Shown in pieces: positions 2,539-18,819 of a DNA stretch of 45,540 bases (the first letter of the stretch is position 1; the number at the start of each line of letters is the position of its first letter). The stretch is from Promethearchaeota archaeon Loki_b32 (GTDB taxonomy: Archaea > Asgardarchaeota > Lokiarchaeia > Sigyniarchaeales > SOKP01), in assembly GCA_005223125.1 (NCBI GenBank), contig NJBH01000032.1, positions 1 through 45,540 on the forward strand, given 5' to 3'. Made by a program: the position numbers and the translations under genes. The notes beneath the pieces were generated by a model. It saw nothing but the letters and a program-made list of their open reading frames with translations. It ran no database searches and was not told the origin of the DNA.

Positions 2539-3069
2539 ATGTCTGAACAAATTTTCACTTTTAAAACGATAGTAATTGGTCCCGCGGCTGTAGGAAAGTC
2601 CAGTCTTATACGTAGATTTGTAGAAAATCAGTTCTCTTTACATTACAAGTTCACAATTGGTGTAGACTTTATGAGTAAGGTTGTAGATTATGAAATAGGG
2701 AAATCTGCTAAACTTACATTATGGGATATAGGAGGACAAGAACGTTTTAAAGTGCTACGTAGAAGTTTTTACGAAGGGACTAATGGGGCGATTGTTGTAT
2801 TTGACCTTTCAAGAGCAGGAACATTTTCGAAAATGAAGGAGTGGCTTTCAGATGTGCGTCAAGCAATTGAGATAGATTTTCCTGCTTTAATTGTAGGGAA
2901 CAAATCTGATTTAATTCCAGAAATTGGTATAGTAATTGATCGAAATGAAATTGAACAATATTCTAAAAAGGAAAACACCATCTATATTGAAACATCAGCC
3001 AAAACAGGCGATAATGTAGAAAAAGCCTTTCTTGAACTTACTCAAAGAATGGTACAAAGATGCATATAA
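2539..3069 (+). CDS. Ras/Rab-like small GTPase (first of three)
   Basis: 176 residues with all five G motifs: G1 GPAAVGKSS (14-22), switch I Thr39 in FTIGVDF, G3 WDIGGQE (62-68), G4 NKSD (121-124) and G5 ETSAK (151-155). Spacing matches Rab/Ras proteins, but G3 carries GGQ, as in Arf/Sar and many Asgard GTPases, instead of AGQ. Gln67 sits at the catalytic Gln position. The C-terminus ends in RCI; one Cys lies next to the end, with no CaaX or double-Cys prenylation motif. It should bind and hydrolyse GTP and act as a molecular switch; effectors are unknown. It is closest by eye to the next gene (3274), suggesting tandem duplication. Confidence 0.92.
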   Translation: MSEQIFTFKTIVIGPAAVGKSSLIRRFVENQFSLHYKFTIGVDFMSKVVDYEIGKSAKLTLWDIGGQERFKVLRRSFYEGTNGAIVVFDLSRAGTFSKMKEWLSDVRQAIEIDFPALIVGNKSDLIPEIGIVIDRNEIEQYSKKENTIYIETSAKTGDNVEKAFLELTQRMVQRCI

Positions 3070-3273
3070 TTAACTGGCAAGATTAATTTAATTTTTTATT
3101 TAAATTTCTTCTATTTTTTGTGATCTTTTAAAAAATGATTTAGATTATTTAATTTAACGAATTATTAAGAACGTTCGAAGGACTAACAAATAAATCAATT
3201 TGATTATCGAATAACATGAATATAAATTAAAAAAGTTCTATTCAATTTTTATAAAACAAAATTTTACTCATTT

Positions 3274-3798
3274 ATGGCAGAATATTCATTTAAGATAATC
3301 ATTATTGGTCCTGCTGCAGTGGGAAAATCCAGCTTAATTCGACGATTTGTAGATAATAAATTCTCCTTACAATACAAATTTACCATAGGCGTTGATTTCA
3401 TGGCTAAAATTATCGAGTATGAGCCGAATAAATCCGCTAGACTTATGCTTTGGGATATAGGCGGGCAAGATCGATTTAAAATGTTACGTCGTAATTTTTT
3501 TGATGGAGCTAATGGAGCACTAGTAGTATTTGACCTTTCCCGAGCCCAAACCTTTTCTAAAATGAAAGAATGGATCTCAGATATGCATAAATTAATGAAA
3601 ATAGAAATACCTTTTGTCATCTTAGGAAACAAAGTCGATCTACTTACTGAAATAGGTGAAGTAATAGATCGAAATGAGCCCCTTCAATACTCTGAGAAAA
3701 ATGACAGTGTTTATATTGAATCCTCAGCTAAAACTGGTAATAATGTCGAAAAAGCCTTTGTAGAACTTACCCAAAGAATTGTACAAAAATTCTCCTAA
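3274..3798 (+). CDS. Ras/Rab-like small GTPase (second of three)
   Basis: 174 residues and very similar to the upstream GTPase through the whole G domain. Motifs: G1 GPAAVGKSS from residue 12, switch I FTIGVDF, G3 WDIGGQD, G4 NKVD and G5 ESSAK. The protein starts almost at the first strand and stops right after the last helix, so it is a bare G domain with no tail or lipidation Cys (it ends in QKFS). The 204-base AT-rich gap before it suggests its own promoter. Nearly identical switch regions in genes one and two imply shared regulators or effectors; this is inference. Confidence 0.92.
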   Translation: MAEYSFKIIIIGPAAVGKSSLIRRFVDNKFSLQYKFTIGVDFMAKIIEYEPNKSARLMLWDIGGQDRFKMLRRNFFDGANGALVVFDLSRAQTFSKMKEWISDMHKLMKIEIPFVILGNKVDLLTEIGEVIDRNEPLQYSEKNDSVYIESSAKTGNNVEKAFVELTQRIVQKFS

Positions 3799-3921
3799 TT
3801 TTGCCGATATTCTAATAATATTACAACATAAAACGACTTTTTTAATCTTTTTAAATTCACCGATTTAGAAAATTTTTAAATATAAAATTTAGATTATTTA
3901 ATAAAACAAATTTTATGCATT

Positions 3922-4458
3922 ATGTCACTTTATGTATTTAAGGTCATAATAATAGGACCTGGAGCTGTCGGAAAGACTTCTCTCTTATACAGATTTGTAG
4001 AAAACAAGTTCTCTTTTCGATATAAGATGACTATAGGTGCGGATTTCCTTTCAAAAACTATTCAAGATCATCCTAAAGCAGGAACAACAGTAAAATTGCA
4101 AATCTGGGATATTGGGGGTCAAGATCGATATAAATTCTTAAGATCCAGCTTTTTTGATGGTGCTAACGGTGCCTTTATTGTTTTTGATCTATCACGTTGG
4201 CATACTTTTGAAGAAATTGAAGACTGGTTATCAGATTTGCATGAATTTGCAGGTGAAAACATCCCTTTTGCATTGATTGGAAATAAGGTTGACTTAATTG
4301 ACAAAAAGGATGAACTCTATGAACGAGAAAGTGCTCAAGTATTTGCTAAAAAAGAACAAACTTATTATATCGAAACCTCCGCAAAAACAGGGGAAAAAGT
4401 GGAAGATGCTTTCTTGAATTTAACGGAAAGAATGTTAAAAAACGTAAGTTATAAATAA
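3922..4458 (+). CDS. Ras/Rab-like small GTPase (third of three)
   Basis: 178 residues, more diverged than the two upstream paralogues. G1 is GPGAVGKTS from residue 12, switch I is MTIGADF, G3 is WDIGGQD, G4 is NKVD and G5 ETSAK. An extra loop before G3 (HPKAGTTVKLQ) lengthens the beta-2/beta-3 region compared with its neighbours. The C-terminus ends in Lys with no Cys, so no prenylation is predicted. It converges with the SNF2 ATPase gene, whose stop is only nine bases away on the other strand. With the other two it forms a small GTPase cluster typical of Asgard genomes. Confidence 0.92.
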   Translation: MSLYVFKVIIIGPGAVGKTSLLYRFVENKFSFRYKMTIGADFLSKTIQDHPKAGTTVKLQIWDIGGQDRYKFLRSSFFDGANGAFIVFDLSRWHTFEEIEDWLSDLHEFAGENIPFALIGNKVDLIDKKDELYERESAQVFAKKEQTYYIETSAKTGEKVEDAFLNLTERMLKNVSYK

Positions 4459-4467
4459 GATTTTCTG

Positions 4468-7400
4468 TTAATCTACAATTTTTAGTAATGAAAATGATAA
4501 GAGATTCGTAAAAAATTTTGCTAAATTCCTTCTATTCATTTCGTTTTTTAAATCTTCATTTTCAAATACGAGATTATCTAATTTCTTCTCTATTAACTGT
4601 AAATCTCTCTTAATAAACTTAATATCTTCTTCTACTTTTTTAAGTTTATTTAATCGTTCTTGCTTCTTTATTAAATCTGTCATTTTTTCTATATTTTGAA
4701 GTTGTCGCGGTGTTAATCTTTTATTTTTATTTCGCTCTAATGTTTGATTTAATGATTCAATTTTAAAATTCAAAGTTCTTTTCCTATGCGAGAAAATCTT
4801 TTCTTTTTTCTTTCTTTCTTGATTAAAAATAGTATTATTTAGAGTTTTAATTTCTCTTTTCCAGATTGATGTTTTTGATTTAACGATTTTTTTTGCTTCT
4901 TGTTGAAGTTTACTAATAATATAATAATCAATATTTAATTTCTCTAGAGCATCTTTAACCAGAAATAATTCATTAAAGTTTTCGATATTTAAAATTGTAT
5001 CCGCAAAATTCTTAATTTCATTACCAAATTCATCAACAACAATTGCTATGATTTGATTTTCATTAATGTAGCCTTGAAATTTAACTGAAAATATAAAAAG
5101 ATATAGTTCTTCTTTATATATTGATTCGAAATCATAAAATCTTTCTAATACTTTTCTATTTAAATTCAAGACGCTTAAATTTCCTTTAAATTCATCACTT
5201 ATGCAATAATCCAATATATTATTGATTAAAGGATGTCCTAAAGCAAAAAAATCAATTTCTTCTTTTTTTCTCGCGAGTTCTAAATTAAATGTTCCTTGAT
5301 ATTCGCTTAATAGGTTATAATTAGGATTTTTTAATAAAATATCTTTAATTTTTATTTCTGATTGAAATTCAAAATCATCTTTAACTCTTTCGTATATATT
5401 TGGAATGTCTTCTAAAGATCCATATACCTGATTATCAAGTTTTAAAAATTGTTTTATTAACAAATACAATTCATTATGAGTAAGTTTTACATCTATGCAT
5501 GATGCTAATGAACTGATTAGCCCTTCCATCTGAAAGGATCTTTTATCAATCATTAGATCATCCAATTGCATCTCAATTTCTTTTGCTTTTCTTATTTCAT
5601 CATCTAAAGTTCTATAAAATTCATTTAATTTCTTCCGTTTTTTCCCATCCTCTTCAGCAAAAATCACACCTTTAAAATCTTTTTCAATTCTTCCAATTAT
5701 TGGCTCTAAGATTCCGATAGATTCTTCAAAGAGTGTGATTCTTTTTATAATAGCATGTATTATATCAGTTTCCACTGTTCCTTCCATGAAGATATTGTAA
5801 ATATAAATTTCTTTTGATTTCTGGCCAATTCTATCAAGTCTACCAATCCTTTGTTCAAGTTTCATAGGATTCCATGGTAAATCATAATTTATTAAAACAC
5901 GACAGAATTGAAAATTACGTCCTTCACCACCGATTTCTGTGGAAATTAAGATTGAAAATTTATGATTTGATCTAAATCTTTCAACTGCTTCATCTTTTTG
6001 TGTTTTATCTAAGCCTCCATAAAATAATTCAACTTCAAAATCATGATTACGATTCTCAATCAAAGTTTTTAAAAATTTCAAGGTATCAACAAACTGTGTA
6101 AAAATAATTATCTTTTCTTTATGATTTTGCGAATAGATTTGGTCTAATAATTCCATTAGTTTATCTGATTTTGAATCATAAGGTAAAGTTTTTAATCTCT
6201 CATAAAATTCTTTTAATATTTTCTCTTGATTTAGAAGATCTGTTGCTTCTTCTTCTTTTTTCTTTGATTCTTTATTATTAAATACTTCGTTTAGTTCCGT
6301 ATCGAGAAATTGGTCCTCTAATTCTGATTCATAATATTCAGGATCTCCTTCTTTAATAATATTGGTATCAAGAAAAATATCTTTATATCTATTAATTTGA
6401 TCGAGTCGTCTTTCCAAGCTCTTTAAAAAGGCATATTTTGAACTAGTTAGTAGTTTTTGAAGAGTAGTTATAATAAATCCAATCCCTGCATTTTCTTTAC
6501 TTAGAGAAGAATTATAAATTTTCGCGAGATATAGTCGAATTTCGTTATAAATATCTAACTCTTGTTGAGCAGGATATACCATAATCGTATTTACTATTCT
6601 TTTGCTCAATAACTCTTCAGTAAATACATTTTTCTTTCGGTTTCTGATTAAAAATTTAGATAAAGTATGATCTTCTTCAATTTTTCTCAGTAAATTCAGT
6701 TTATATGAATCCTCTTGAATTTGGGAAAGAACTTGTTTAATCTCTTTATTTTTATCTATGTATTTGAGATCTTTTAGAAGTTTTATTGTATTTTTTACTT
6801 CAAAATTATTCAATTTATCAAGATTATTCAAGTTTGAAGTCAATAAGTTGATAAAAGGGTAGTTCTTTCTAAAATGTTCAAAATCACTAAAATTTTCAAA
6901 TACTTCTGGATGAATAAGCTCAATTAGAGAAAATAAATCAAAAGAATGAAGTTGTAAAGGTGTAGCAGTTAATAAGAGCATACCTTCAGAAGTTATACCT
7001 AAATTTTTTGCTAATTCATAATTAAGAGTTTCTCGGTAATTACCTGTAATTGAATTTATTAGATATCTTCTTAAATGATGTGCTTCATCAAAAACTACTA
7101 TATCCCATGAGATACTCGATAAGAGCTCAATATATTTTCTGTTTCGAGCAAATTGAAGCGAACAGATAATTAAATTATTGTAATAGAAAGGATTCTGGAG
7201 AATTTCTGGATGTTTATAGCTTCCTTTACGTTTTAATTCTTTTACTTTTTTACCGTCATATACAGTAAAAGTGATATTAAATTTATTTTGCATTTCAAAC
7301 TGCCATTGTTTAACTAATGACGCGGGAACTATTATTAAGATGCGTTCTGCTAAGTCTCTTGCCATCATCTCCTTAATATAAATACCTGCTTCAATTGTTT

Positions 7401-8076
7401 TTCCAAGTCCAACTTCATCTGCTAAAATAATTCTTGGGAAGTGTTCTTCAGAGAGACGATGGGTCACATTTATCTGGTGAGGCATTAATGATAATCTTGA
7501 ATTTGTAATACACTTGATTTGATATGATTTATAATAAGAATAGAATAAATTTGCCCAATATTTGATTAAGAAATTTTCAGGAGGATCAAATTTTTGTTTT
7601 GAAATAAGAGTTTTTATAGGCCTTTCATACTTAGAATAGATTTCACTCTCGTAAATTTGAGATTTTTTGCCATTCTCCTTTAGAAATTCATAGGAAATTA
7701 TTCCATTCTTAATTAGGAAATCTTTTTTATTTATATAGCCTATTCCTTGTTTTGTAACGATTTGATCCTCTTCTTGAAAAATATAATGGATAAGATCAAT
7801 CGGATGGATTATTTTAATTATGTTGTTTCTAAACGAGACTTTAAATTTAGTAATAAAATAAGTATCATCCTCATCTAAAGACTTTGAGGTGGGGATTTCT
7901 AACCTTTTTATAATTCGTCCAATCCCTAAATTTGGATTTAACCTATAAATAACTAGATTACCTACATTAAACTTTTGTCCTTGACAATAAATGTTAAAAC
8001 ATTTTGAAAATCTTGATTCTAATTCTTTTCCGCAGAAGGGGCAACTATACTTAAGAGGATTTATCTTTAAAACCAT
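4468..8076 (-). CDS. RapA/HepA-like SNF2 family DNA-dependent ATPase
   Basis: 1202 residues. It opens with a four-Cys zinc ribbon (C12, C15, C26, C31). The SNF2 motor has motif I DEVGLGKT (220-227), motif II DEAH (330-333) and motif III LTATPLQ (about 369-375). The second RecA lobe has FTQFVDTL, STEIGGEGRNFQ and the arginine-finger motif QRIGRLDRIGQ near residue 740. The C-terminal part (about 1065-1180) is a Lys/Glu-rich coiled coil. Layout and motifs resemble RapA, the SNF2 protein that recycles RNA polymerase, and the SNF2 component DrmD of the DISARM defence system. No methylase, phospholipase-D or other DISARM gene is adjacent, so a general transcription or chromatin role is more likely. 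It is divergent from the QueG-like gene. Confidence 0.85.
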   Translation of the reverse strand: MVLKINPLKYSCPFCGKELESRFSKCFNIYCQGQKFNVGNLVIYRLNPNLGIGRIIKRLEIPTSKSLDEDDTYFITKFKVSFRNNIIKIIHPIDLIHYIFQEEDQIVTKQGIGYINKKDFLIKNGIISYEFLKENGKKSQIYESEIYSKYERPIKTLISKQKFDPPENFLIKYWANLFYSYYKSYQIKCITNSRLSLMPHQINVTHRLSEEHFPRIILADEVGLGKTIEAGIYIKEMMARDLAERILIIVPASLVKQWQFEMQNKFNITFTVYDGKKVKELKRKGSYKHPEILQNPFYYNNLIICSLQFARNRKYIELLSSISWDIVVFDEAHHLRRYLINSITGNYRETLNYELAKNLGITSEGMLLLTATPLQLHSFDLFSLIELIHPEVFENFSDFEHFRKNYPFINLLTSNLNNLDKLNNFEVKNTIKLLKDLKYIDKNKEIKQVLSQIQEDSYKLNLLRKIEEDHTLSKFLIRNRKKNVFTEELLSKRIVNTIMVYPAQQELDIYNEIRLYLAKIYNSSLSKENAGIGFIITTLQKLLTSSKYAFLKSLERRLDQINRYKDIFLDTNIIKEGDPEYYESELEDQFLDTELNEVFNNKESKKKEEEATDLLNQEKILKEFYERLKTLPYDSKSDKLMELLDQIYSQNHKEKIIIFTQFVDTLKFLKTLIENRNHDFEVELFYGGLDKTQKDEAVERFRSNHKFSILISTEIGGEGRNFQFCRVLINYDLPWNPMKLEQRIGRLDRIGQKSKEIYIYNIFMEGTVETDIIHAIIKRITLFEESIGILEPIIGRIEKDFKGVIFAEEDGKKRKKLNEFYRTLDDEIRKAKEIEMQLDDLMIDKRSFQMEGLISSLASCIDVKLTHNELYLLIKQFLKLDNQVYGSLEDIPNIYERVKDDFEFQSEIKIKDILLKNPNYNLLSEYQGTFNLELARKKEEIDFFALGHPLINNILDYCISDEFKGNLSVLNLNRKVLERFYDFESIYKEELYLFIFSVKFQGYINENQIIAIVVDEFGNEIKNFADTILNIENFNELFLVKDALEKLNIDYYIISKLQQEAKKIVKSKTSIWKREIKTLNNTIFNQERKKKEKIFSHRKRTLNFKIESLNQTLERNKNKRLTPRQLQNIEKMTDLIKKQERLNKLKKVEEDIKFIKRDLQLIEKKLDNLVFENEDLKNEMNRRNLAKFFTNLLSFSLLKIVD

Positions 8077-8145: not shown

Positions 8146-9003
8146 ATGTCAGATGCCGGAATTGAACCAACATATATAGGAAAAAATGAGGATTTAATCT
8201 TTATAATTCCTCAAGAATTATTTAATATGAACTTAGGTCCAGCAGAAGTGTTAGACCGTGAAAATGCAAAATTATATAGTACATATATAAGAGGCACCTT
8301 TAAAGGATTTCAGTGTGCAAGAAAAACTAAGTATGGAAATGAGAATAACACTAAAACAAAGATTCCACCCGATTTTTGGGAAAAATTTGAAAATAAGGCA
8401 AAAGAACTTGATATAGATTTCATAGGATATACTCCTGTTAATGAAAATTTTGTTTTTAAAGGTCTAAAAGTATATGGAAAAAATGCTATAATTCTCGGGA
8501 TGGAAATGAAATGGGACAAAATCAAAACAGCTCCCAGCGGAATATGTCAAATTGAAGTTTTTCGCGTATATAAAGTATTGGGAGATATTACGATTGAATT
8601 AACGGAATATCTAAAAGGTCAAGGGTATAAAAGCGAAGCACACCATCCTTTTGGAGGAAAACTTTTAGATGGACCTCACGTTGTAGCTGCAAATTTAGGA
8701 ATAATGGGTAGAAATGGGCTTATTATAACTCCTGAATTCGGACCACGACAAAGATGGAGCATGATTTCTACTGATGCTGAGATACCTAAAACTTTAAAAA
8801 GAGATTTCAATGAATTGGAAGAATTTTGCAAAGGATGTGGAGCTTGTGTAAAAAATTGCAAAGGTGGATCAGTATATGAAGAACCAATAAAAAAACCATC
8901 TGGTATAATTACTCATATTGATCGATCTAAATGCATTGAAAGTTTATTGAAAAATAATTATTGTAGTTATTGTCTTAAAATTTGCCGTCCGAGAATATCA
9001 TAA
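8146..9003 (+). CDS. QueG-like (epoxyqueuosine reductase family) 4Fe-4S protein
   Basis: 285 residues. The C-terminal part carries two [4Fe-4S] sites: C228, C231, C234, C238 and C263, C273, C276, C280. The middle (about 90-220) resembles the catalytic region of QueG and reductive-dehalogenase-like proteins, including the block LGIMGRNGLIITPEFGPR (184-201) just before the ferredoxin part. QueG uses cobalamin to reduce epoxyqueuosine in tRNA, but archaeal relatives often have other, unknown reductase jobs, and I cannot confirm a cobalamin site. It starts 69 bases from the SNF2 gene on the opposite strand and precedes the HdrD-GltD fusion by 150 bases, so a redox partnership with that protein is possible. 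Confidence 0.65.
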   Translation: MSDAGIEPTYIGKNEDLIFIIPQELFNMNLGPAEVLDRENAKLYSTYIRGTFKGFQCARKTKYGNENNTKTKIPPDFWEKFENKAKELDIDFIGYTPVNENFVFKGLKVYGKNAIILGMEMKWDKIKTAPSGICQIEVFRVYKVLGDITIELTEYLKGQGYKSEAHHPFGGKLLDGPHVVAANLGIMGRNGLIITPEFGPRQRWSMISTDAEIPKTLKRDFNELEEFCKGCGACVKNCKGGSVYEEPIKKPSGIITHIDRSKCIESLLKNNYCSYCLKICRPRIS

Positions 9004-9153: not shown

Positions 9154-11916
9154 ATGACTGAATCAGATGATAAAGTAGCAGATGATAAAATCAAAGGAAC
9201 AGCTTCTATAGAAAAGCTTAGAAAGGTAAATGCTGCTGCTAATTATTGCTATGAATGTAATCGTTGTGTAAATGTGTGTCCAGTAGCATTTTTAGATATT
9301 TTTAATCCCCGAGAGTTAATTACAGATTTAACGTTTCTGACACCAGAAGAAGCTTTAAAGAATAATGATATATGGAAATGCTTAACATGTGGGCTATGTT
9401 CAATTTACTGTCCAATGACTAAAGATAAAACCGGAGTAAATTTCACTGAAATTATTAAGGATCTCCGCTCTCTTACTTCAGAATACAAACCATTACAAGA
9501 TACATTAATAAATTGTAATCACGAAAGAGTATATTCAAGTTTACCAAAATTAATGGCAGAAGATAAAGTTGAATTTACTAATAAAATAGGATTTTTAGAG
9601 GGAACTGGGTTAAAAACAACTAATAAAGGAGAAATTGGCTACTTTATGGGGTGTATTCCATTCTTAACAGGTGCTGCTCCTTGTGTCGTTGGATGCCCTG
9701 CTGGGGTTGACGTTCAAGGTTATGTATCACTTATTGCAGAAGGTAAATTTCAAGAGTCTATCGATCTAATAAGAGAAACAAATCCATTACCATACTTATG
9801 TGGACGGATTTGTACTGCTCAATGTGCATTAAATTGTAATCGTGAACATTTTGATGATCCAGTTGCTATCCGTGAACTTAAGCGATTTGTTTCCGACTGG
9901 GAAACTGAGCATCCTAATCAAAGTAAAATAAAACCTGTTCCACAGAATAAAGAAAAAGTTGCTATTATTGGGGCAGGGCCTGGGGGGTTATCAGCAGCAT
10001 ACTTTCTTGCGAGAATGGGATATAAACCAACCATATTCGAGAAAGGAGATAAAACCGGTGGAGTCGTAAGATACGGTGTTCCACAATATAGACTTTCTGA
10101 TGAAGCTCTTGACCATGATGTAGATTTTATAAAAAGTATGGGAGTAGAAATTGTTTTAAATAAAGAATTTGGCCCAAATTTCACAATAGAAGATATTTGG
10201 AAGCAAGGTTATAGAACAATCTTTATTGCTGTCGGCTTGTATGTACCAAAAACGCTTAGACTTGAAGGTGAAGATTTACCTAACGTGCATGTAGCAATAG
10301 ACTTTCTTTTAGAGCGAAAATATAAATGTGCGGAAAATCCAGAAGAGTTTAAAGGCAAAACTTTTGGAATTATCGGAGGTGGAGCAGTAGCCGTTGATGC
10401 GGGTGAAACAGCTCTTCGGCTCGGAGCAACCAAGGCTGATCTTGTCGATATTTTGACAGAAGAAGCTTTAAAGAATGTACTTAAGGACTTACATGAAGCT
10501 GAGAGAGAAGTAATGGAATACCATTTTGAGACATCAACAACGAAAATCACTCAAGAACCAGATGGAAAATTAGCATTAAATTGTTATAAAATTGAATGGG
10601 GGGATCCCGATCCTGAAACTGGAAGAAGACCTTTAAATAAAATAGAAGGATCAGATTATAAAATTGTGGTGGATCATATTGTTATAGCGATCGGTCAGGG
10701 ACTTGATCCAGAACCAATTAATGCTGCTACAGATAATCAAATAAAAATTGAAAGAGGTAAAATTGTAGTAGATGATTTAACTTATGAAACAGGTATTCCA
10801 GGGGTTTTTGCGGGTGGTGACATAATTTATAATTCGTTAATGTGTGCTGTCGATGCTATTGGAGATGGGAGAGAAGCCGCATTTACAATTGATCGCTATC
10901 TCAGAGGTCTTGATCTAAAAGAAGGGAGAAGAAGAAAAAACGACTTAAAGCGCTCAACAATCCCGAAAAAATACATTCAAATAAACTCATGCCAAGAAAT
11001 GAATTTCATGCCTGGCAATGAAAGACTTGTATGCTTCGATGAGATGGAATTAGGCTATACTGAGGAACAAGCAAAAAAAGAAGCTAACAGATGTCTAAAT
11101 TGTAATTGTTGCTGTAATTCTGATCAGATTCCAGAAGATTTCGAAAACGCGCTTAATGATTCTGGAATTATGATATGCGATTATGGGAGCCAAGATATTT
11201 GGCCTTCAATAAATGCACCTAATTATTATGAGATCCCCAAAAGTGTAATTGGAATTTTAAATCAAAATGACATAACTCCAGTTGTTTTACCAGAAGAAAA
11301 ATGCTGCGGACATGATAGTCTTTGGCGAGGAGATGTTGACACATTTAAGAAATTAGCGGAATATAATGTAAAATTATTTAAAGATGCAGGAGTCAAAACT
11401 CTAATCTTTAGCTGCGCTGAAGGATATTATACCTGGAAAACTGAATATAAAAAGCTATTTGAAGGCAGTGATGAATTCGATTTTGATATTTATCACATAA
11501 CTGAATATATACTAAAAGAAAACCTATTTGATAGCATAACTTTTTCAAACTTTGATAAAATTAAGGTAACTTATCACGATCCTTGCAGACTTGGGAGAAT
11601 GAGTGATGTTTTTGATGCTCCAAGGGAAGTATTAAAACAAATACCATATTTAGAATTAATTGAAATGGAAGACACTATGCAAGATGCAGAATGTTGTGGA
11701 GTTTCAGCATATGTATCATGCAATCAGGATTCAAAAAAATTACAAGAAAAGAAAATAAATCAGGCTATTGAAACTGGTGCAGAATACTTAATTACAGCAT
11801 GTCCTAAGTGTATAGCTCATCTGAATTGCTATTTAAATGAAAATAAAGAAATAAAAGATAAAATAAAAATAGTTGATCTAGTAAGTTTTCTAGGAAAACT
11901 ACTTTTTTTAGTGTAA
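9154..11916 (+). CDS. HdrD-like heterodisulfide reductase with an inserted GltD/NfnB flavin module
   Basis: 920 residues. Residues 25-110 form an HdrC-type ferredoxin (C32, C35, C38, C42; C76, C79, C82, C86). At 161-171 the HdrD family block IGYFMGCIPFL begins the first CCG domain, but it is interrupted by a full GltD/NfnB-type module (about 172-660). That module has ferredoxin-like Cys at 177, 181, 216, 220, 224 and 228, an FAD site GAGPGG (273-278), an NAD(P)H site IGGGAVAV (407-414), AGGD (553-556) and CLNC (647-650). The CCG domain resumes at about 665 with EEKCCGH (714-720). A second CCG domain has DPC811, C847-C848 and C883/C886. In the first CCG domain the usual CxxC reads CAEG (754-757), losing one ligand. 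It probably couples NAD(P)H to thiol/disulfide or ferredoxin chemistry. Confidence 0.85.
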   Translation: MTESDDKVADDKIKGTASIEKLRKVNAAANYCYECNRCVNVCPVAFLDIFNPRELITDLTFLTPEEALKNNDIWKCLTCGLCSIYCPMTKDKTGVNFTEIIKDLRSLTSEYKPLQDTLINCNHERVYSSLPKLMAEDKVEFTNKIGFLEGTGLKTTNKGEIGYFMGCIPFLTGAAPCVVGCPAGVDVQGYVSLIAEGKFQESIDLIRETNPLPYLCGRICTAQCALNCNREHFDDPVAIRELKRFVSDWETEHPNQSKIKPVPQNKEKVAIIGAGPGGLSAAYFLARMGYKPTIFEKGDKTGGVVRYGVPQYRLSDEALDHDVDFIKSMGVEIVLNKEFGPNFTIEDIWKQGYRTIFIAVGLYVPKTLRLEGEDLPNVHVAIDFLLERKYKCAENPEEFKGKTFGIIGGGAVAVDAGETALRLGATKADLVDILTEEALKNVLKDLHEAEREVMEYHFETSTTKITQEPDGKLALNCYKIEWGDPDPETGRRPLNKIEGSDYKIVVDHIVIAIGQGLDPEPINAATDNQIKIERGKIVVDDLTYETGIPGVFAGGDIIYNSLMCAVDAIGDGREAAFTIDRYLRGLDLKEGRRRKNDLKRSTIPKKYIQINSCQEMNFMPGNERLVCFDEMELGYTEEQAKKEANRCLNCNCCCNSDQIPEDFENALNDSGIMICDYGSQDIWPSINAPNYYEIPKSVIGILNQNDITPVVLPEEKCCGHDSLWRGDVDTFKKLAEYNVKLFKDAGVKTLIFSCAEGYYTWKTEYKKLFEGSDEFDFDIYHITEYILKENLFDSITFSNFDKIKVTYHDPCRLGRMSDVFDAPREVLKQIPYLELIEMEDTMQDAECCGVSAYVSCNQDSKKLQEKKINQAIETGAEYLITACPKCIAHLNCYLNENKEIKDKIKIVDLVSFLGKLLFLV

Positions 11917-12084
11917 TTTAGTTTTATTTTCTTTATTTGTAATTTTTTTATTGTTATCATTCTTTATTATAAATCACTTTAATAGCCGTATAATTCTCTG
12001 TAATTAATGTATAACCTTAAAAAGAATAATAACTTACAGAAAAGTTAATGGGTAAATTTCAAATAAACATGAAATTTGATAATT

Positions 12085-13869
12085 ATGAGTGAAAAAGAAA
12101 TAGCGTGGGATTTAAGTAAGATTTTTTCAAGTTGTGATGATCCTAAAATTACGGAAACTATAAATGCTCTTTTGGAAGATGCAGATGATATTATCAAAGA
12201 ATACAAGGGAAAAATTAATATAACCAATTTTACTGCCCAAAATTTACATGATCTTTTAGAAAAACAAGAAAAAATTCTTGCAGATGTAGAAGAAATAAAA
12301 ATATTTTCAGAAAATAAATTCTATGCAAATATGACGCTTCTCGAAACCAAAGCTCTTTATAATAAATTTAAGGATTTTCATAGTTCTATTTTAAAAAAAT
12401 TAGCATTTCTTGAAATAAATATTGGAAAACTTATCGATGAAAATCCACGGTTAATAGATGATGAAACTATTAGTAATTACAAAAATTATCTTGTAAAAAT
12501 TAGGAGGAAATTTCCTTTTAAACTATCAGAGTCAGAAGAAAAGTTAATTCTAGAAAAAGATCAGTATGGTGCAAACGCATGGCAGCAGTTAAAGGAATCT
12601 TGGTTAAGTTCTAGAAAGTTTAAAGTTACTGTGGAAGGGAAAGAGAAAATGGTATCGCTTAGTGAATCAAACTCTCTAAGGTGGCATCCTGATAGAGAAA
12701 CGAGGATATCTGCTACTAAATCAGTTTTTGGTTCAATTGAAAAAGAGATAGAAATATATGCTTCTGCATTACGAAATATTTGCGGTGACTGGGTGAAAAT
12801 TACGAATCATAGAGGTTACAAAAATCCAATTCACCATAGCCTCATTAAAAATGAAATAACTCATGTTATTATAGATAATTTAATGAAGATAGTAGAAGAA
12901 AATGTAAGTATCTATCACAGATTCTTAAAAATAAAAGCTAAACTCTTAAATCTACCAAAATTAAACGGTGTTGATACTTGGGCATACCTCCCTTCTGAGA
13001 AAAAATATACATGGGATGAAACCAAAAAACTTATCCTTCAAATATATGATAACTTTGATAAATCATTTGGGGACATTGTAAGTGATCTTTTCAATAAAAA
13101 TCATATAGATGCTAGTACAAGAGAAGGTAAACTTGGTGCTGGTTACTGTTTTCCTTGGTACAATGGAAAATCTGCTCATATTCTAATATCTTTTAAAGGG
13201 TTATTAAGTGATATTCATACTCTTGCTCATGAATTTGGGCATGCAGCTCATTACTATTTGTCTTCTCAAGAACAGACATTCTTTAATTATATGCCAGGAT
13301 TGGTTATAGATGAGATAGGCGGAATTTTTGGAGAATTATTAATGTATGATGCATTACTTGAAACCATTGATTCTACTAATGAAAAAATAATATTATTAAC
13401 TAATCGATTAAGTACGGAAGGTGGTGCGATTTTTCTCGTAAGTGCTAGTATGTGGTTTGAACAAAATCTTTACGATGCTATTGAAAAGGGGGAATATTTA
13501 GATGGTAACACTATCTCCAAATATTGGTGTGCTGCTAGAGATAAAATATTTGGAGATTCAGTCGAATGGTTTGATGAGATGAAATGGAATTGGGTGGTTG
13601 TACCACATTTCTATTTTCCTCATGATCGCTTCTATAATTACCCCTATGCTTATGCTCAACTTTTTGTTTACGCTTTATATCAAACCTATAAAAAAGAAGG
13701 TGAAAGTTTCGTTCCAAAATTTAAGAAGCTTTTAAGCGCGGGTAGCAACCTATCTCCAGAAGAACTTGGTAAGATCGTAGGTTTGGATATAACTAAACCA
13801 GATTTTTGGAAGCTTGGAATGAAACAATATGAGGAATTCATAGATGAGTTAGAAAAACTCACAAAATAA
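12085..13869 (+). CDS. pepF: M3 family oligoendopeptidase F
   Basis: 594 residues. The zinc motif HEFGH is at 382-386, and the downstream helix DEIGGIFGE supplies the third zinc ligand, as in the M3 family. The N-terminal helical half is typical of PepF, and the length matches (about 600). It is a cytoplasmic zinc peptidase that cleaves short peptides left by larger proteases. I chose ATG 12085 (protein begins MSEKEIAWDLS) over a TTG three codons upstream; neither has a convincing ribosome binding site. It stands alone between two redox regions. Confidence 0.88.
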   Translation: MSEKEIAWDLSKIFSSCDDPKITETINALLEDADDIIKEYKGKINITNFTAQNLHDLLEKQEKILADVEEIKIFSENKFYANMTLLETKALYNKFKDFHSSILKKLAFLEINIGKLIDENPRLIDDETISNYKNYLVKIRRKFPFKLSESEEKLILEKDQYGANAWQQLKESWLSSRKFKVTVEGKEKMVSLSESNSLRWHPDRETRISATKSVFGSIEKEIEIYASALRNICGDWVKITNHRGYKNPIHHSLIKNEITHVIIDNLMKIVEENVSIYHRFLKIKAKLLNLPKLNGVDTWAYLPSEKKYTWDETKKLILQIYDNFDKSFGDIVSDLFNKNHIDASTREGKLGAGYCFPWYNGKSAHILISFKGLLSDIHTLAHEFGHAAHYYLSSQEQTFFNYMPGLVIDEIGGIFGELLMYDALLETIDSTNEKIILLTNRLSTEGGAIFLVSASMWFEQNLYDAIEKGEYLDGNTISKYWCAARDKIFGDSVEWFDEMKWNWVVVPHFYFPHDRFYNYPYAYAQLFVYALYQTYKKEGESFVPKFKKLLSAGSNLSPEELGKIVGLDITKPDFWKLGMKQYEEFIDELEKLTK

Positions 13870-14080
13870 CTGTGTTTTAGAATTTTATTTCTTAAAATTA
13901 ATTATTTACAGATTTGTAAGTTTGTCAACATCCATCTACTATTCATTTTCATTAGTATGAGTTCACTTATTTTAAAGAGAGACATTTTTGGAATTAAGAA
14001 GAAACCTAATAAATATTGATACTTTATTTTTTCATAATTATTTTCTATCAAAAAATAACTCTTAAATAATAGTGAAAAAC

Positions 14081-16006
14081 ATGAGTAAAACTAAGGAAAT
14101 ACCTGTTCCTGATAAAATTTTGGGTTTTACACAAGTTAGACTTGATGTAGATCTAACAGATGGAAAGATTAGTAAGTCTAAACTATCTAATGAATTCTGT
14201 CGCGATTGGATTGGTGGTTATGGTTTTGGTGCCAAAGTATTATGGGATGAATGCCCAGCTGGAGTTGATCCCTTAAGCCCAGAGAACGTGTTTGTATATG
14301 CACATGGTCCATTTCCAGGAACTATTCTTCCTACAAGTTCTAAATATGGTGTATTTGCTAAATCTCCATTAACTGGCCAGTTTGGAATGGCCATTTCTTC
14401 TGGATCTGTTGGTGCTCAAGCTCGACGTGCTGGCATCAATATGATAGTATTCAAAGGTAAAGCCCCAGAACCTGTTTATATGGTTGTTGATGACGACGAT
14501 TATTATTTATTTCCATGTAAAGATTCCGTATGGGGTAAAAGTTGTTGGGAAACAGAAGAAATCTTGAGGGAAGAATTTCAAGATCAACGTCTAGGGATAA
14601 TGACTATAGGCCCAGGCGGAGAACGTATGAGTCGTATGGGATGTATCACAAATGATCGCAACAGGCAAGCAGGAAGGACAGGTATGGGGGCTGTAATGGG
14701 ATCAAAAAACCTTAAAGCCGTATGCTTTAGAGGTACTAAGGGAATTAGTGTAGCCCAACCTGTAGAGTTCTTTAAATTAGCGAAAAAATTAATAAAAGTC
14801 GCTAACGGACCTGCTACAGCTAAATATCGCGATTTAGGTACGCCTGCAGGTATAACAAGCTACAACAAGCTTGGAATGATGCCTATTTTTAACCATCGCG
14901 AAGGAACTTGGGATAAAATTGATGATGGGACATTTACAGGTGATATACTCAATCAAGATTGGGTTATAAAGAAAGTTGCATGTTCACAATGCTCAATAGG
15001 GTGTGATCACATTACTAAGGTACCTAAAGATCATCCAAATTGGCCCAATCTATATTCAAGTATAGACCAAGAACTTTGTTATAGTTTTGGAACCGCGTGC
15101 GGTAATTATGATTGGCCATCCGTATTTAAATGCGTATCATTAACAGATGATCTTGGTATTGATGCTATTAGTGGAGGCGCAACTGCTGCTATGGCTTGCG
15201 AATGTTTCGAGGAAGGTATTATCACCAAAGAGGATTTAGGTTATGAATTACCTTTTGGGTCTACAGTTAATCTTGTGAGATTTACCGAAGAAATGATTCT
15301 TGGTAAAGGTTTCGCAGGTAAGATTTTTGGAGATGGAACAAGAGAAGCTGGAAAACGATTAGAGGAAATGGGTAGAAAAAATGCAAGTTATTATGCTATG
15401 CATGTTAAGGGGTTAGAATTACCTGCTTTTGATGTACATGGAATGAGTTCATTTGCCGTTGGAATGAGTGTTTCTATTCGTGGAGCATGTCATTTACGTA
15501 ATGGAGCATATGGATTAGATGCAAAAGGGAAATTTGACCGCTTCGGTTATGATAAACCAGTTGAACGAGGTAAAGCAATTAAAGATTTAGAAGATATCTA
15601 TGCTATAATCGATTCATATATCGTGTGTAAATTTACTCGAGGAATTTATGAAAATGATGCTGAAATGGCAAAAGTCTTTGAGCTTGTGACAGGAATCCCT
15701 GTGACTGATAAATTTATACAACATAGAGGAGAAGCTATATTGAACCTTTCAAAATGTTTTAACATTCGAGAAGGATGGACACGAGATGATGATAAGCCAC
15801 CTGAAAGGTTCTTCAAACAACCACATACAAGAGGGCCTGCTAAAGGTATTGTTTTGAAAGAAGAAGGGTATCAGAAAGTATTAAGTGGTTATTTTGAAGC
15901 TCGAGGCTGGGATACTAAGACAGGAATTCCTACAGATGAAACGTTAAAGTCTCTTGGATTAGATTTTGTAATTGGCAAATTATCACCTGCAGGAGGTAAG
16001 AAATAA
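14081..16006 (+). CDS. aor: Tungsten-dependent aldehyde ferredoxin oxidoreductase
   Basis: 641 residues, the size of archaeal AOR. The N-terminal AOR domain has GPFPGT, SSKYGVFAKSPLTGQFG and GSVGAQARRAG blocks that bind the tungstopterin. The [4Fe-4S] ligands are C301, C304 and C308 in CSQCSIGC, with the distant fourth at C516; this spacing is close to that of Pyrococcus AOR. The enzyme oxidises aldehydes to acids, or runs in reverse, with ferredoxin as partner; the substrate cannot be read from sequence. A GTG three codons upstream is possible, but ATG 14081 has AGTGA five bases before it. The ferredoxin partner gene starts at the base after its stop, so the two are translationally linked. 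Confidence 0.92.
   Translation: MSKTKEIPVPDKILGFTQVRLDVDLTDGKISKSKLSNEFCRDWIGGYGFGAKVLWDECPAGVDPLSPENVFVYAHGPFPGTILPTSSKYGVFAKSPLTGQFGMAISSGSVGAQARRAGINMIVFKGKAPEPVYMVVDDDDYYLFPCKDSVWGKSCWETEEILREEFQDQRLGIMTIGPGGERMSRMGCITNDRNRQAGRTGMGAVMGSKNLKAVCFRGTKGISVAQPVEFFKLAKKLIKVANGPATAKYRDLGTPAGITSYNKLGMMPIFNHREGTWDKIDDGTFTGDILNQDWVIKKVACSQCSIGCDHITKVPKDHPNWPNLYSSIDQELCYSFGTACGNYDWPSVFKCVSLTDDLGIDAISGGATAAMACECFEEGIITKEDLGYELPFGSTVNLVRFTEEMILGKGFAGKIFGDGTREAGKRLEEMGRKNASYYAMHVKGLELPAFDVHGMSSFAVGMSVSIRGACHLRNGAYGLDAKGKFDRFGYDKPVERGKAIKDLEDIYAIIDSYIVCKFTRGIYENDAEMAKVFELVTGIPVTDKFIQHRGEAILNLSKCFNIREGWTRDDDKPPERFFKQPHTRGPAKGIVLKEEGYQKVLSGYFEARGWDTKTGIPTDETLKSLGLDFVIGKLSPAGGKK
15991..15997 (+). promoter_or_regulatory. 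Ribosome binding site of the AOR-linked ferredoxin gene
   Basis: AGGAGGT lies inside the last codons of the AOR gene, nine bases before ATG 16007. It fixes the start of the downstream gene and couples its translation to that of AOR. Confidence 0.65.
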
Positions 16007-16564
16007 ATGTCAAAAGTTGGAACTAAAAAAAGAGGAGGAGTAGTACACCAGTTTATTATCGTTGACCCAAATCTATGTTCGGGATGCGAGACATGTGAAT
16101 CTGTTTGTTCATTCGTCCATGATGGCGAATTTAACCCAATTAATACGCGAATCCATAGAGTAAGAATTGAACCCATTTTGAATGTTGCACTAGCTTGCCA
16201 AAAATGTGATGACGCACCCTGCGTGCGTGCATGTCCAGAAAAAGCTCTTGAACAGAATAAAGAAACAGGTTCAATTATCGTAGATGATGATAAGTGCAAT
16301 GGATGTGCCTTTTGTATACGTGCATGTGACTTTGGAGTTTTAGGTTTACATATACAATCTCAAAAAGCTCTTATTTGCGATTTATGCGAAACAATGAAAG
16401 AAGACTATATCGATCCAGAAAGAGGGGAACCATATCCTGCGTGTATCGATGTATGCCCAAAAGAAGCTATATCGTTGAAAGATGTTGAACAAATTGGTGA
16501 AGAAAAAAGGATTGATGCTGTAAAAAGGCTATTTGGCGAAATCTTAAAAGAAACTGAAGGTTAA
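16007..16564 (+). CDS. Four-cluster ferredoxin subunit paired with AOR
   Basis: 185 residues with four Cys groups arranged like the electron-transfer subunits of molybdenum/tungsten oxidoreductases (DmsB/HycB type): LCSGCETCESVCS (from about 23), CQKCDDAPCVRACP, CNGCAFCIRACDFG, and CDLCETM with CIDVCP near the end. Such proteins bind up to four [4Fe-4S] clusters. It starts at the base following the AOR stop and has a perfect ribosome binding site, so it is made with AOR and should carry AOR electrons to ferredoxin or the HdrA complex encoded next. After its stop comes a 278-base AT-rich leader before hdrA. Confidence 0.88.
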   Translation: MSKVGTKKRGGVVHQFIIVDPNLCSGCETCESVCSFVHDGEFNPINTRIHRVRIEPILNVALACQKCDDAPCVRACPEKALEQNKETGSIIVDDDKCNGCAFCIRACDFGVLGLHIQSQKALICDLCETMKEDYIDPERGEPYPACIDVCPKEAISLKDVEQIGEEKRIDAVKRLFGEILKETEG

Positions 16565-16842: not shown

Positions 16843-18819
16843 TTGTCTGAAAAACAGACCAATAAAAATGAAAACGAAGATCAACCAAGAATAGGTGTGT
16901 TCGTGTGCCACTGAGGTATTAATATCGCAGGAATCTTAGATATTCCAAAGATAGTCGAAGAGATAGATAAATTAGACAATGTTTGGGCTTATCCATACAT
17001 CTCTCTATGAACTGAAGGTGGATCCACTGAAATCAAAGAGAAACATGAAGAATTTAAGTTTGATAGAGTTGTTGTAGCAGCTTGTACTCCAAAAACACAT
17101 CAGCCTGTTTTCCATGCTATTTTAACAGAGATGGGCTTACCACCACGTTATTTGGAGTTCGTAAACATTCGCGAGCATTGTTCATTTGTACATCAAGCTC
17201 CGGAGGTGCGTGAAAGAGCAACACTGAAAGCCATAGAATTAATCAAAGCGGGGATTTCTAGATCAAGACTATTAGAGGATGTACCAACAAAAACAGTACC
17301 AGTAAAACCAGCGGCTTTAGTTGTTGGTGGAGGAATCGCAGGATTATCAGCAGCAATCGATTTAGGAGATGCGGGTTATAAAGTATATTTAGTGGAGAAG
17401 AATACGACGATTGGTGGTCGTATGTCCCAACTCGATAGAACTTTCCCAACAGACGATTGTTCGATATGAATATTGGGACCAAAAATGCTTGAAGCCAATC
17501 GCCATCCAAACGTAGAAATATTAACCTACAGTGAAGTCATAGAAATAGATGGGTACATCGGTAACTTTAAAGCTAAATTAAGAAGAAAAGCACGCTTTGT
17601 TGATGAGACAAAATGTATTGGTTGTGGTTCTTGTACAGATATATGTCCTGTTTACACGAGTAATTACTTTGATGAACATTTATCTGCGAGAAAAGCTATA
17701 GATATTGCTTTTGCCCAAGCAGTTCCGGCAGTTTCACAACTTAACCGAGACGTTTGTGTTGAATGTTTTGCGTGTGTTGATGCATGTGAACAAGAAGCCA
17801 TAGATTTCAGCCAACGAGATAAAATTATAGAACTTGATATTGGAACGATAATAGTTGCTACTGGTTGGGACCTCTATAAAGGTGATGATTATGGTTATGG
17901 TATTTATGATAACGTAATCAACCAAATAGAATTAGAGAGGATCCTAGCACCTAATGGACCAACTTATGGTCATTTGAAGCGTCCCTCTGACGGTAAACGC
18001 CCTACTAAAGTATTATTTATTAATTGCGTTGGATCCAGAGATATAAATAAAAATGCTCATTGCAGTGTTATCTGTTGTAATCTTTCTCTAAAAAACTCTA
18101 AATTAATCAAGTCAGAATACCCTGATTCGCAAATTGTTTGTTGTTATATTGATATGCGATGTGCTGGGAAAGATTACGAAGAATATTATAGAAGATCTCG
18201 AGATGCGGGAATTATTTTTGTTAAGGGATTGGTCGGAAAAATAGAACAAGATCCGTTAACGAAAAATCTGAAAGTACAATTTGAACCAGTTGGTACTGAT
18301 AGTATAGTTTCTATGGAATTTCACATGGTGGTTACTTCACCAGCATCATTACCATCTCAAGGAACTAACGAAATTGCCAGAGTTCTGAAAATGGAAAAAA
18401 GCCCTGATGGGTTCTTAAAAGAATATCATGCACGACTCGATCCAATTAGTACAAAAGTCCCGGGAATTTATATCTGTGGTTCTGCCCAAGGTCAAAAAGA
18501 GATTGATAAGACAGTAAGCCAAGCTAGAGGAGCAGCATCAGTAGCAGGCATTCCAATGGGAAAAGGTGAATATACTATGGAATTAATCCGAGCTAAACCC
18601 TCAGATGAACGTTGTGCTAAATGCTATAGATGTATAGAGGCCTGTCCATATACAGCAATTTCAGTAAATCCTGAAGGAAATCTTGTTGTTGACCTCATAA
18701 ATTGTCGAGGTTGTGGAGCTTGTGCATCATTATGTCCTTCAAAAGCAATTGAATTAACATACTTTAGAGATGACCAGTATATGGCATTAATAGATGAATT
18801 ATTACCAATTGAGGAATAA
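16843..18819 (+). CDS. hdrA: Selenocysteine-containing HdrA, flavin electron-bifurcating subunit
   Basis: 658 residues when three in-frame TGA codons are read as selenocysteine (Sec24 at 16912, Sec56 at 17008, Sec209 at 17467). All three replace Cys that are conserved in HdrA: CHUG for CHCG, LUTEGG in the second N-terminal cluster site, and CSIUILGPKM for CSxCILTPKM in the FAD region. The FAD motif VVGGGIAGLS follows residue 160. An inserted ferredoxin has CIGCGSCTDICP and CVECFACVDAC, and the C-terminus has CAKCYRCIEACP and CRGCGACASLCP. HdrA splits electron pairs between ferredoxin and a thiol/disulfide or hydride partner. TTG start with GGTGA six bases before it; mvhD starts 16 bases after the stop, so the pair share a transcript and probably one SECIS. 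Confidence 0.9.

Follow-up and report, generated by a model that had tools for sequence, protein, structure and literature searches.

A GltD-type flavin module nested within a CCG domain of an HdrD-like protein of Lokiarchaeia

Type III HdrA, reported from ANME-1 and Bathyarchaeota, carries a GltD module as an insertion (Lyu et al. 2025, PMC12054007). The flavins of NfnB and HdrA bifurcate, and in NfnB a pair of conserved arginines binds the phosphate of NADP (PMC6405883). At the proximal cluster, the fourth ligand is a Glu in NfnB and a Lys (K170) in StnC, where the GltD-type FAD has been shown to be non-bifurcating (PMC10482914). AorABC reduces NAD through its FAD subunit (PMC10413684). No published HdrD-GltD insertion was found in a literature search that was thin on subscription journals and returned only the HdrA case (PMC12054007). 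The nesting of GltD in HdrD described here appears to be unreported, and extends a theme known from type III HdrA and StnC.

The gene is located at positions 9154-11916 of the window, i.e. the whole stretch of 45,540 nucleotides that was analysed, and encodes in one uninterrupted ORF an HdrD-like protein of 920 aa; this gene and all features with coordinates given as part of it, as well as the aldehyde oxidoreductase, polyferredoxin and HdrA genes discussed below, are on the plus strand. Its Pfam domains are Fer4_8 (residues 29-88), Fer4_20 (174-253), Pyr_redox_2 (268-572) and two CCG stretches. The host, consisting of the residues before 172 and after 689, is HdrD-like, with an HdrC-like 2[4Fe-4S] ferredoxin domain (the Pfam Fer4_8 match, positions 9238-9417) followed by two CCG domains. 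The cysteines of the ferredoxin domain (32, 35, 38, 42, 76, 79, 82 and 86) are invariant in the 34 sequences aligned. CCG domain 1 is in two parts, a first piece defined by the CCG profile and the structural model (residues 156-171, positions 9619-9666), which contains the strand GYFM and the cluster cysteine C167, and a remainder defined by alignment and the CCG profile (residues 690-790, positions 11221-11523), which contains C717-C718 and C754-A-E-G757. The motif of this domain is incomplete, its fifth cysteine being missing, as it is from the close un-inserted paralogues. CCG domain 2 (Pfam and motif; residues 805-890, positions 11566-11823) carries the complete noncubane-type C/CC/CxxC motif (C811, C847-C848, C883-x-x-C886), which is invariant in the 34 sequences.

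Between the two parts of CCG domain 1 lies an insert of about 518 residues (172-689, positions 9667-11220), at a place where un-inserted paralogues have about 8-10 residues. The un-inserted HdrD of the same genome (G000:C36, 418 aa) aligns to residues 20-171 and 690-920 and has about 10 residues where the nested protein carries 518. When compared to the CCG profile, the post-insert piece alone matched positions 12-78 (33.5 bits), the rejoined host pieces matched positions 2-78 (39.5 bits) and an un-inserted paralogue matched positions 1-78. As the profile match is regained on rejoining, the insert sits after the first strand of CCG domain 1 (residues 161-164 in the AlphaFold model) and its first cluster cysteine, C167, and the block IGYFMGCIPFL does belong to a CCG domain. 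Without the insert, C167 is separated from the CC pair by 31 residues, a spacing that falls in the published range (CX31-39CC). The clean break relative to the paralogues and the split CCG profile rule out an end-to-end fusion. The preliminary description of this DNA, which had proposed a domain insertion of about 490 residues, was thus right on this point as well as on the ORF, its coordinates and the join, and its length estimate was close, as the GltD module itself comprises about 480 residues (173-653). The G+C content of window positions 9501-11500, the region of the insert, is 0.34-0.38, which is higher than that of the flanks (about 0.25-0.33).

An AlphaFold2 model was built on 34 homologues (mean pLDDT 75.8, pTM 0.71). 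Residues 160-920 of the model superposed on HdrB (5odc_B), with 234 residues aligned at 2.4 A and a Z of 21.9, and on LutA (9a6l_A; Z 25), in both cases with host parts from before and after the insert, while the insert superposed on NfnABC/StnC (Z 37-38). Since the model matches HdrB and LutA across the insert, the CCG domain is predicted to close around the module in one HdrB/LutA-like fold.

The insert has the composition of a GltD/NfnB/StnC module, with a Fer4_20 cluster domain and FAD- and nucleotide-binding Rossmann domains. The former, identified by the Fer4_20 profile and a residue table (positions 9673-9912), contains C177, C181, C220, C224, C228 and K243 (9880-9882). The latter (Pyr_redox_2, positions 9955-10869) contain R313 (10090-10092) and V431-D432-I433-L434 (10444-10455), which replaces (V/I)YRR. 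The GltD modules fall into two classes: (V/I)YRR is kept in one and replaced by VDIL in the other, which includes the window. The Rossmann domains are followed by the segment ERLVCFDEMELGYTEEQAKKEANRCLNCNCC (about residues 620-653, positions 11011-11112), recognised by its match to the NfnB N-terminus and containing the predicted distal-cluster cysteines C647 and C650. The linker behind it (residues 654-689, positions 11113-11220) is, according to the alignments, specific for the HdrD-nested form and has an invariant Y677-G678.

The last 30 residues of the module (ERLVCFDEMELGYTEEQAKKEANRCLNC) match the N-terminal part of the local NfnB with scores of 73-78, compared to a maximum of 44-47 in 500 shuffles. 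Similarly, the Fer4_20 profile matches here from 29 to 111 only, its first 28 positions being absent, whereas in the local NfnB the match starts at position 1. Judged from the displaced match and the late profile start, the segments of the module are in a circularly permuted order compared with NfnB. The order of segments in StnC is the same as in the insert, and modules of the StnC/NfnABC type are nearer relatives of the insert than are GltD or NfnB proper. From the homology with dihydropyrimidine dehydrogenase and NfnB, we take C647, C650, C177 and C228 to be the ligands of the distal cluster, and C181, C220, C224 and residue 243 to be those of the proximal cluster; all predicted ligands are invariant in the 34 sequences. 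The distal cluster would then be the place where the two ends of the module come together, ten residues away from C167 of the host; this would account for an insertion that does not break the host fold. The preliminary description had put NAD(P)H oxidation beside the heterodisulfide-type catalytic cluster. The GltD-type FAD/NAD(P) module is indeed placed beside an HdrD cluster site, but not beside the presumed catalytic one: as CCG domain 1 lacks its fifth cysteine and CCG domain 2 is complete, the module joins the degenerate side.

The conserved neighbours, identified by synteny, include a tungsten aldehyde oxidoreductase (AOR; AorB-like, positions 14072-16006), whose best solved relative is 8c0z_A (E 6e-100), and a polyferredoxin (AorA-like, positions 16007-16564), with 8c0z_C and 9mqx_E among its best matches. 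The AOR is most similar to AorB of AorABC, and the polyferredoxin is among the proteins most similar to AorA. Both adjoin the gene in most of the loci whose flanks are long enough to tell, for the VDI as well as for the YRR class. No AOR is present in the stretch read of loci L064, L066, L068, L076 and L077, so that the link is not obligatory, and in the genomes of genus g2 the nested gene faces away from the AOR. NfnA and NfnB (often FrhB-fused) are adjacent in g2 and in one g5 genome. An HdrA gene (positions 17131-18819), found by synteny to be a frequent neighbour, has an in-frame TGA at 17467-17469, at a conserved-cysteine position (DCSIUILGPK). This TGA probably encodes selenocysteine; an Rfam search around the gene found neither a SECIS nor another Rfam match. 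In several loci, the TGA-containing HdrA and an FrhB-like protein follow.

The conserved neighbour at 8146-9003 codes for a short iron-sulfur protein that resembles reductive dehalogenases but scores well below the family cutoff (TIGR02486, 59 bits, cutoff 160; PceA 8q4h, E 1.5e-16). Its identification as QueG is not supported, as the matches, which are weak, are to reductive dehalogenase models. A SNF2/RapA-like helicase (4468-8076) is found near the redox cluster across genera, and three consecutive genes for Rab/Ras-like small GTPases (2539-4458) are conserved in synteny. The gene at 12076-13869, presumably coding for an M3-type peptidase, lies between the nested HdrD and the AOR only in the window and in L037 among the loci read.

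We favour, with modest confidence, the reading that the protein is an electron-transfer enzyme of the HdrD type with a link to NAD(P)(H), in which a StnC-type permuted module serves as a non-bifurcating relay tied to AOR/thiol chemistry. The StnC-type permuted GltD module would have entered a Lokiarchaeial HdrD, in the loop that follows the first cysteine of its CCG domain 1. Its FAD would exchange hydride with NADPH in the YRR-keeping clade and more likely with NADH in the window's clade. Single electrons would pass between the FAD, the proximal cluster (C181, C220, C224, K243) and the distal cluster (C177, C228, C647, C650), the latter lying beside C167 of the host, and then through the CCG domain 1 cluster and the ferredoxin domain to a thiol/disulfide site in CCG domain 2 and/or to the neighbouring AorAB-like aldehyde oxidoreductase. 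The most likely direction is that aldehyde-derived electrons reduce NAD(P)+, with CCG domain 2 as a second, thiol-linked outlet. The degenerate CCG domain 1 may hold no cluster, which would break this path. The simplest model is an NAD(P)-linked redox hub for the neighbouring AOR with a thiol/disulfide outlet, and the gene probably provides a direct connection between NAD(P)H chemistry and aldehyde/thiol metabolism. A fixed complex with the AOR is unproven, because the AOR is not always adjacent and the g2 gene faces away from it.

Another possibility, which we regard as unlikely, is that the nested HdrD replaces HdrBC and works with a separate, bifurcating HdrA, the GltD module supplying only mid-potential electrons. 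The HdrA genes with the probable selenocysteine are nearby, although several kb off and with other genes between. The same family of genomes also contains a GltD module nested in an HdrA of 1648 aa. Four genomes (G005, G017, G033 and G019) have no nested HdrD but a plain HdrD beside a GltD-nested HdrA, which is of the 1648-aa type in three of them and is cut by the contig end in the fourth. Among genomes at least 90% complete, the nested HdrD and the 1648-aa HdrA never occur together (0/28 versus 4/14, Fisher p 0.009), in a comparison of few and phylogenetically related genomes, and there are exceptions for other types of GltD-nested HdrA (G004 and G141). This pattern is suggestive of the nested HdrD and the GltD-nested HdrA replacing one another, and is a lead only.

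The preliminary description had also raised the idea of a new bifurcating enzyme. If the enzyme were self-contained, NAD(P)H would be oxidised at the module FAD, with one electron sent up to the disulfide site and the other down to ferredoxin. The known bifurcation by NfnB and HdrA flavins speaks for such a self-contained enzyme, as do the presence of a cluster chain and a thiol-type site in a single chain and the invariant R313, the counterpart of the N5-binding Arg, which corresponds to R239 of StnC. However, this Arg at the FAD N5 is also present in the non-bifurcating StnC, and the proximal-cluster ligand position is a Lys (K243), as in StnC, in every inserted HdrD examined and a Glu in the local NfnB. 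Moreover, the FAD has a single cluster exit, and the Pfam domains within the polypeptide include neither an HdrA bifurcating FAD nor an NfnA-type partner with its [2Fe-2S] high-potential branch. The idea is weakened by the ligand evidence and by the missing fifth cysteine of CCG domain 1, and we consider it improbable; the flavin of the module is most likely a non-bifurcating relay.

It is also improbable, in our view, that the nucleotide site of the window's clade is dead or takes another carrier, the module being a structural or electron-storing flavin. A D-I motif replaces YRR in every member of the clade and the same change is found in related FrhB-nested modules of the family, but GGGxVAxD is conserved, as is the Rossmann domain overall, and the sister clade, which keeps YRR, has the same host and neighbours. 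Against this reading also stands that NADH sites typically carry an acidic residue behind strand 2. As the two phosphate-binding arginines are gone, use of NADPH by the window's clade is doubtful. The signals for nucleotide specificity are contradictory, the loss of YRR standing against the motif GxGxxA, which has been taken as NADP-type (PMC12054007).

An assembly or frameshift artefact joining two genes has a negligible probability, as chance and assembly error are excluded by the identical join in independent assemblies of 34 genomes, at about 49-90% identity, including the one-contig chromosome CP070831.1. These 34 genomes, out of 227 Asgard genomes in which the architecture was searched, encode the nearly full-length nested protein and all belong to one family of Lokiarchaeia, in which 40 of 65 genomes have the nested gene if fragments at contig edges are included. 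Outside this family, no nested HdrD was found in the 227 Asgard genomes (E 1e-140); in the related family f8, the matches examined were HdrA-nested, L114 (G183) not being among those assigned. A contig scan beyond the Asgard set used patterns of the window's clade and reached no further than close relatives. In a tree of the host parts, all 18 inserted sequences tested formed one clade (91/89), with un-inserted HdrD as its sister (100/99). This is consistent with a single insertion into a Lokiarchaeial HdrD, which is most likely, the support being good but not decisive.

In the module tree, by contrast, the VDI class groups with FrhB-nested modules (100/100) and not with the YRR class from the same host. 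Since monophyly of all HdrD-nested modules was not rejected at the 5% level (p-AU 0.074), a swap of modules between hosts is at most suggested. The FrhB-nested protein of the family has 825 aa, in which FrhB_N (78-149) is followed by the module and then by FrhB_C (658-742). In G000:C47:669-3143 (also L002 and L070), a GltD module 57% identical splits the FrhB_FdhB_C domain of an FrhB/FdhB-type F420 protein, and in relatives (L054) the FrhB-nested gene adjoins HdrA/MvhD-type genes. End-to-end fusions of FrhB with a canonical NfnB were also seen (L005:19-2751 and L047:11759-14515), the L047 copy adjoining NfnA. GltD is nested in HdrA, as type III HdrA, at L059:8982-13925 and in L060, L061, L062 and L071, from Lokiarchaeia and another Asgard family; in L059-L061 the protein additionally contains a second HdrA and an MvhD (FlpD) domain, and its gene has an un-inserted HdrD next to it. 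One may speculate, although we hold it to be rather unlikely as a whole, that the permuted GltD is a transferable plug-in whose ends meet at a cluster, which would allow its insertion next to clusters in hosts that are unrelated, that it entered HdrD, HdrA and FrhB and was exchanged between hosts, and that in HdrD it gives a disulfide enzyme that works with NADH, does not depend on HdrA and may bifurcate in a novel manner.

HdrD can be added to the proteins in which a flavin module is nested, and insertions have remodelled Hdr subunits to a greater extent than HdrA surveys suggest. A testable explanation for the success of such insertions is that the two ends of the module would together form a cluster. 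The finding is also relevant to the question of how aldehyde, NAD(P)H and thiol redox pools could be connected, with no classical HdrABC complex involved, in uncultured Asgard archaea.

Compared to known systems, the protein resembles type III HdrA in having a GltD-type module, with a proposed NAD(P)H entry, nested in an Hdr subunit at an iron-sulfur site. The host of type III HdrA is HdrA, with the insertion in its inserted ferredoxin, whereas here it is a CCG domain of HdrD, the host pieces matching CCG and Fer4_8 and folding like HdrB/LutA. As host and site differ, this is a separate insertion; the HdrA-nested proteins of this Asgard family are those that correspond to the published type III HdrA (PMC12054007). 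The un-inserted HdrD, HdrB, C-terminal part of TfrB and LutA share the CCG domains and their fold, and HdrD and TfrB also the HdrC-like ferredoxin domain, but those found here carry no module inside CCG domain 1. AorABC of Aromatoleum similarly has an AOR and a polyferredoxin adjoining a gene for a FAD/NAD protein, but its AorC is a Rossmann FAD protein and not a GltD-HdrD (PMC10413684). NfnB and GltD have the same fold, FAD and nucleotide domains and Fer4_20 clusters as the insert, but are not permuted, are stand-alone or fused end to end, and in NfnB the proximal cluster has a Glu. The closest solved relatives of the insert are StnC of StnABC and NfnA of NfnABC (8oh5, 9bov, 9n5u), which share the permuted order, with PCxxxCPA first and RCLxC last, the Lys at the proximal cluster (StnC) and the location of GltD within a larger iron-sulfur protein, but whose host is NuoG-like, and from which the window's clade differs by the absence of the NADP arginines.
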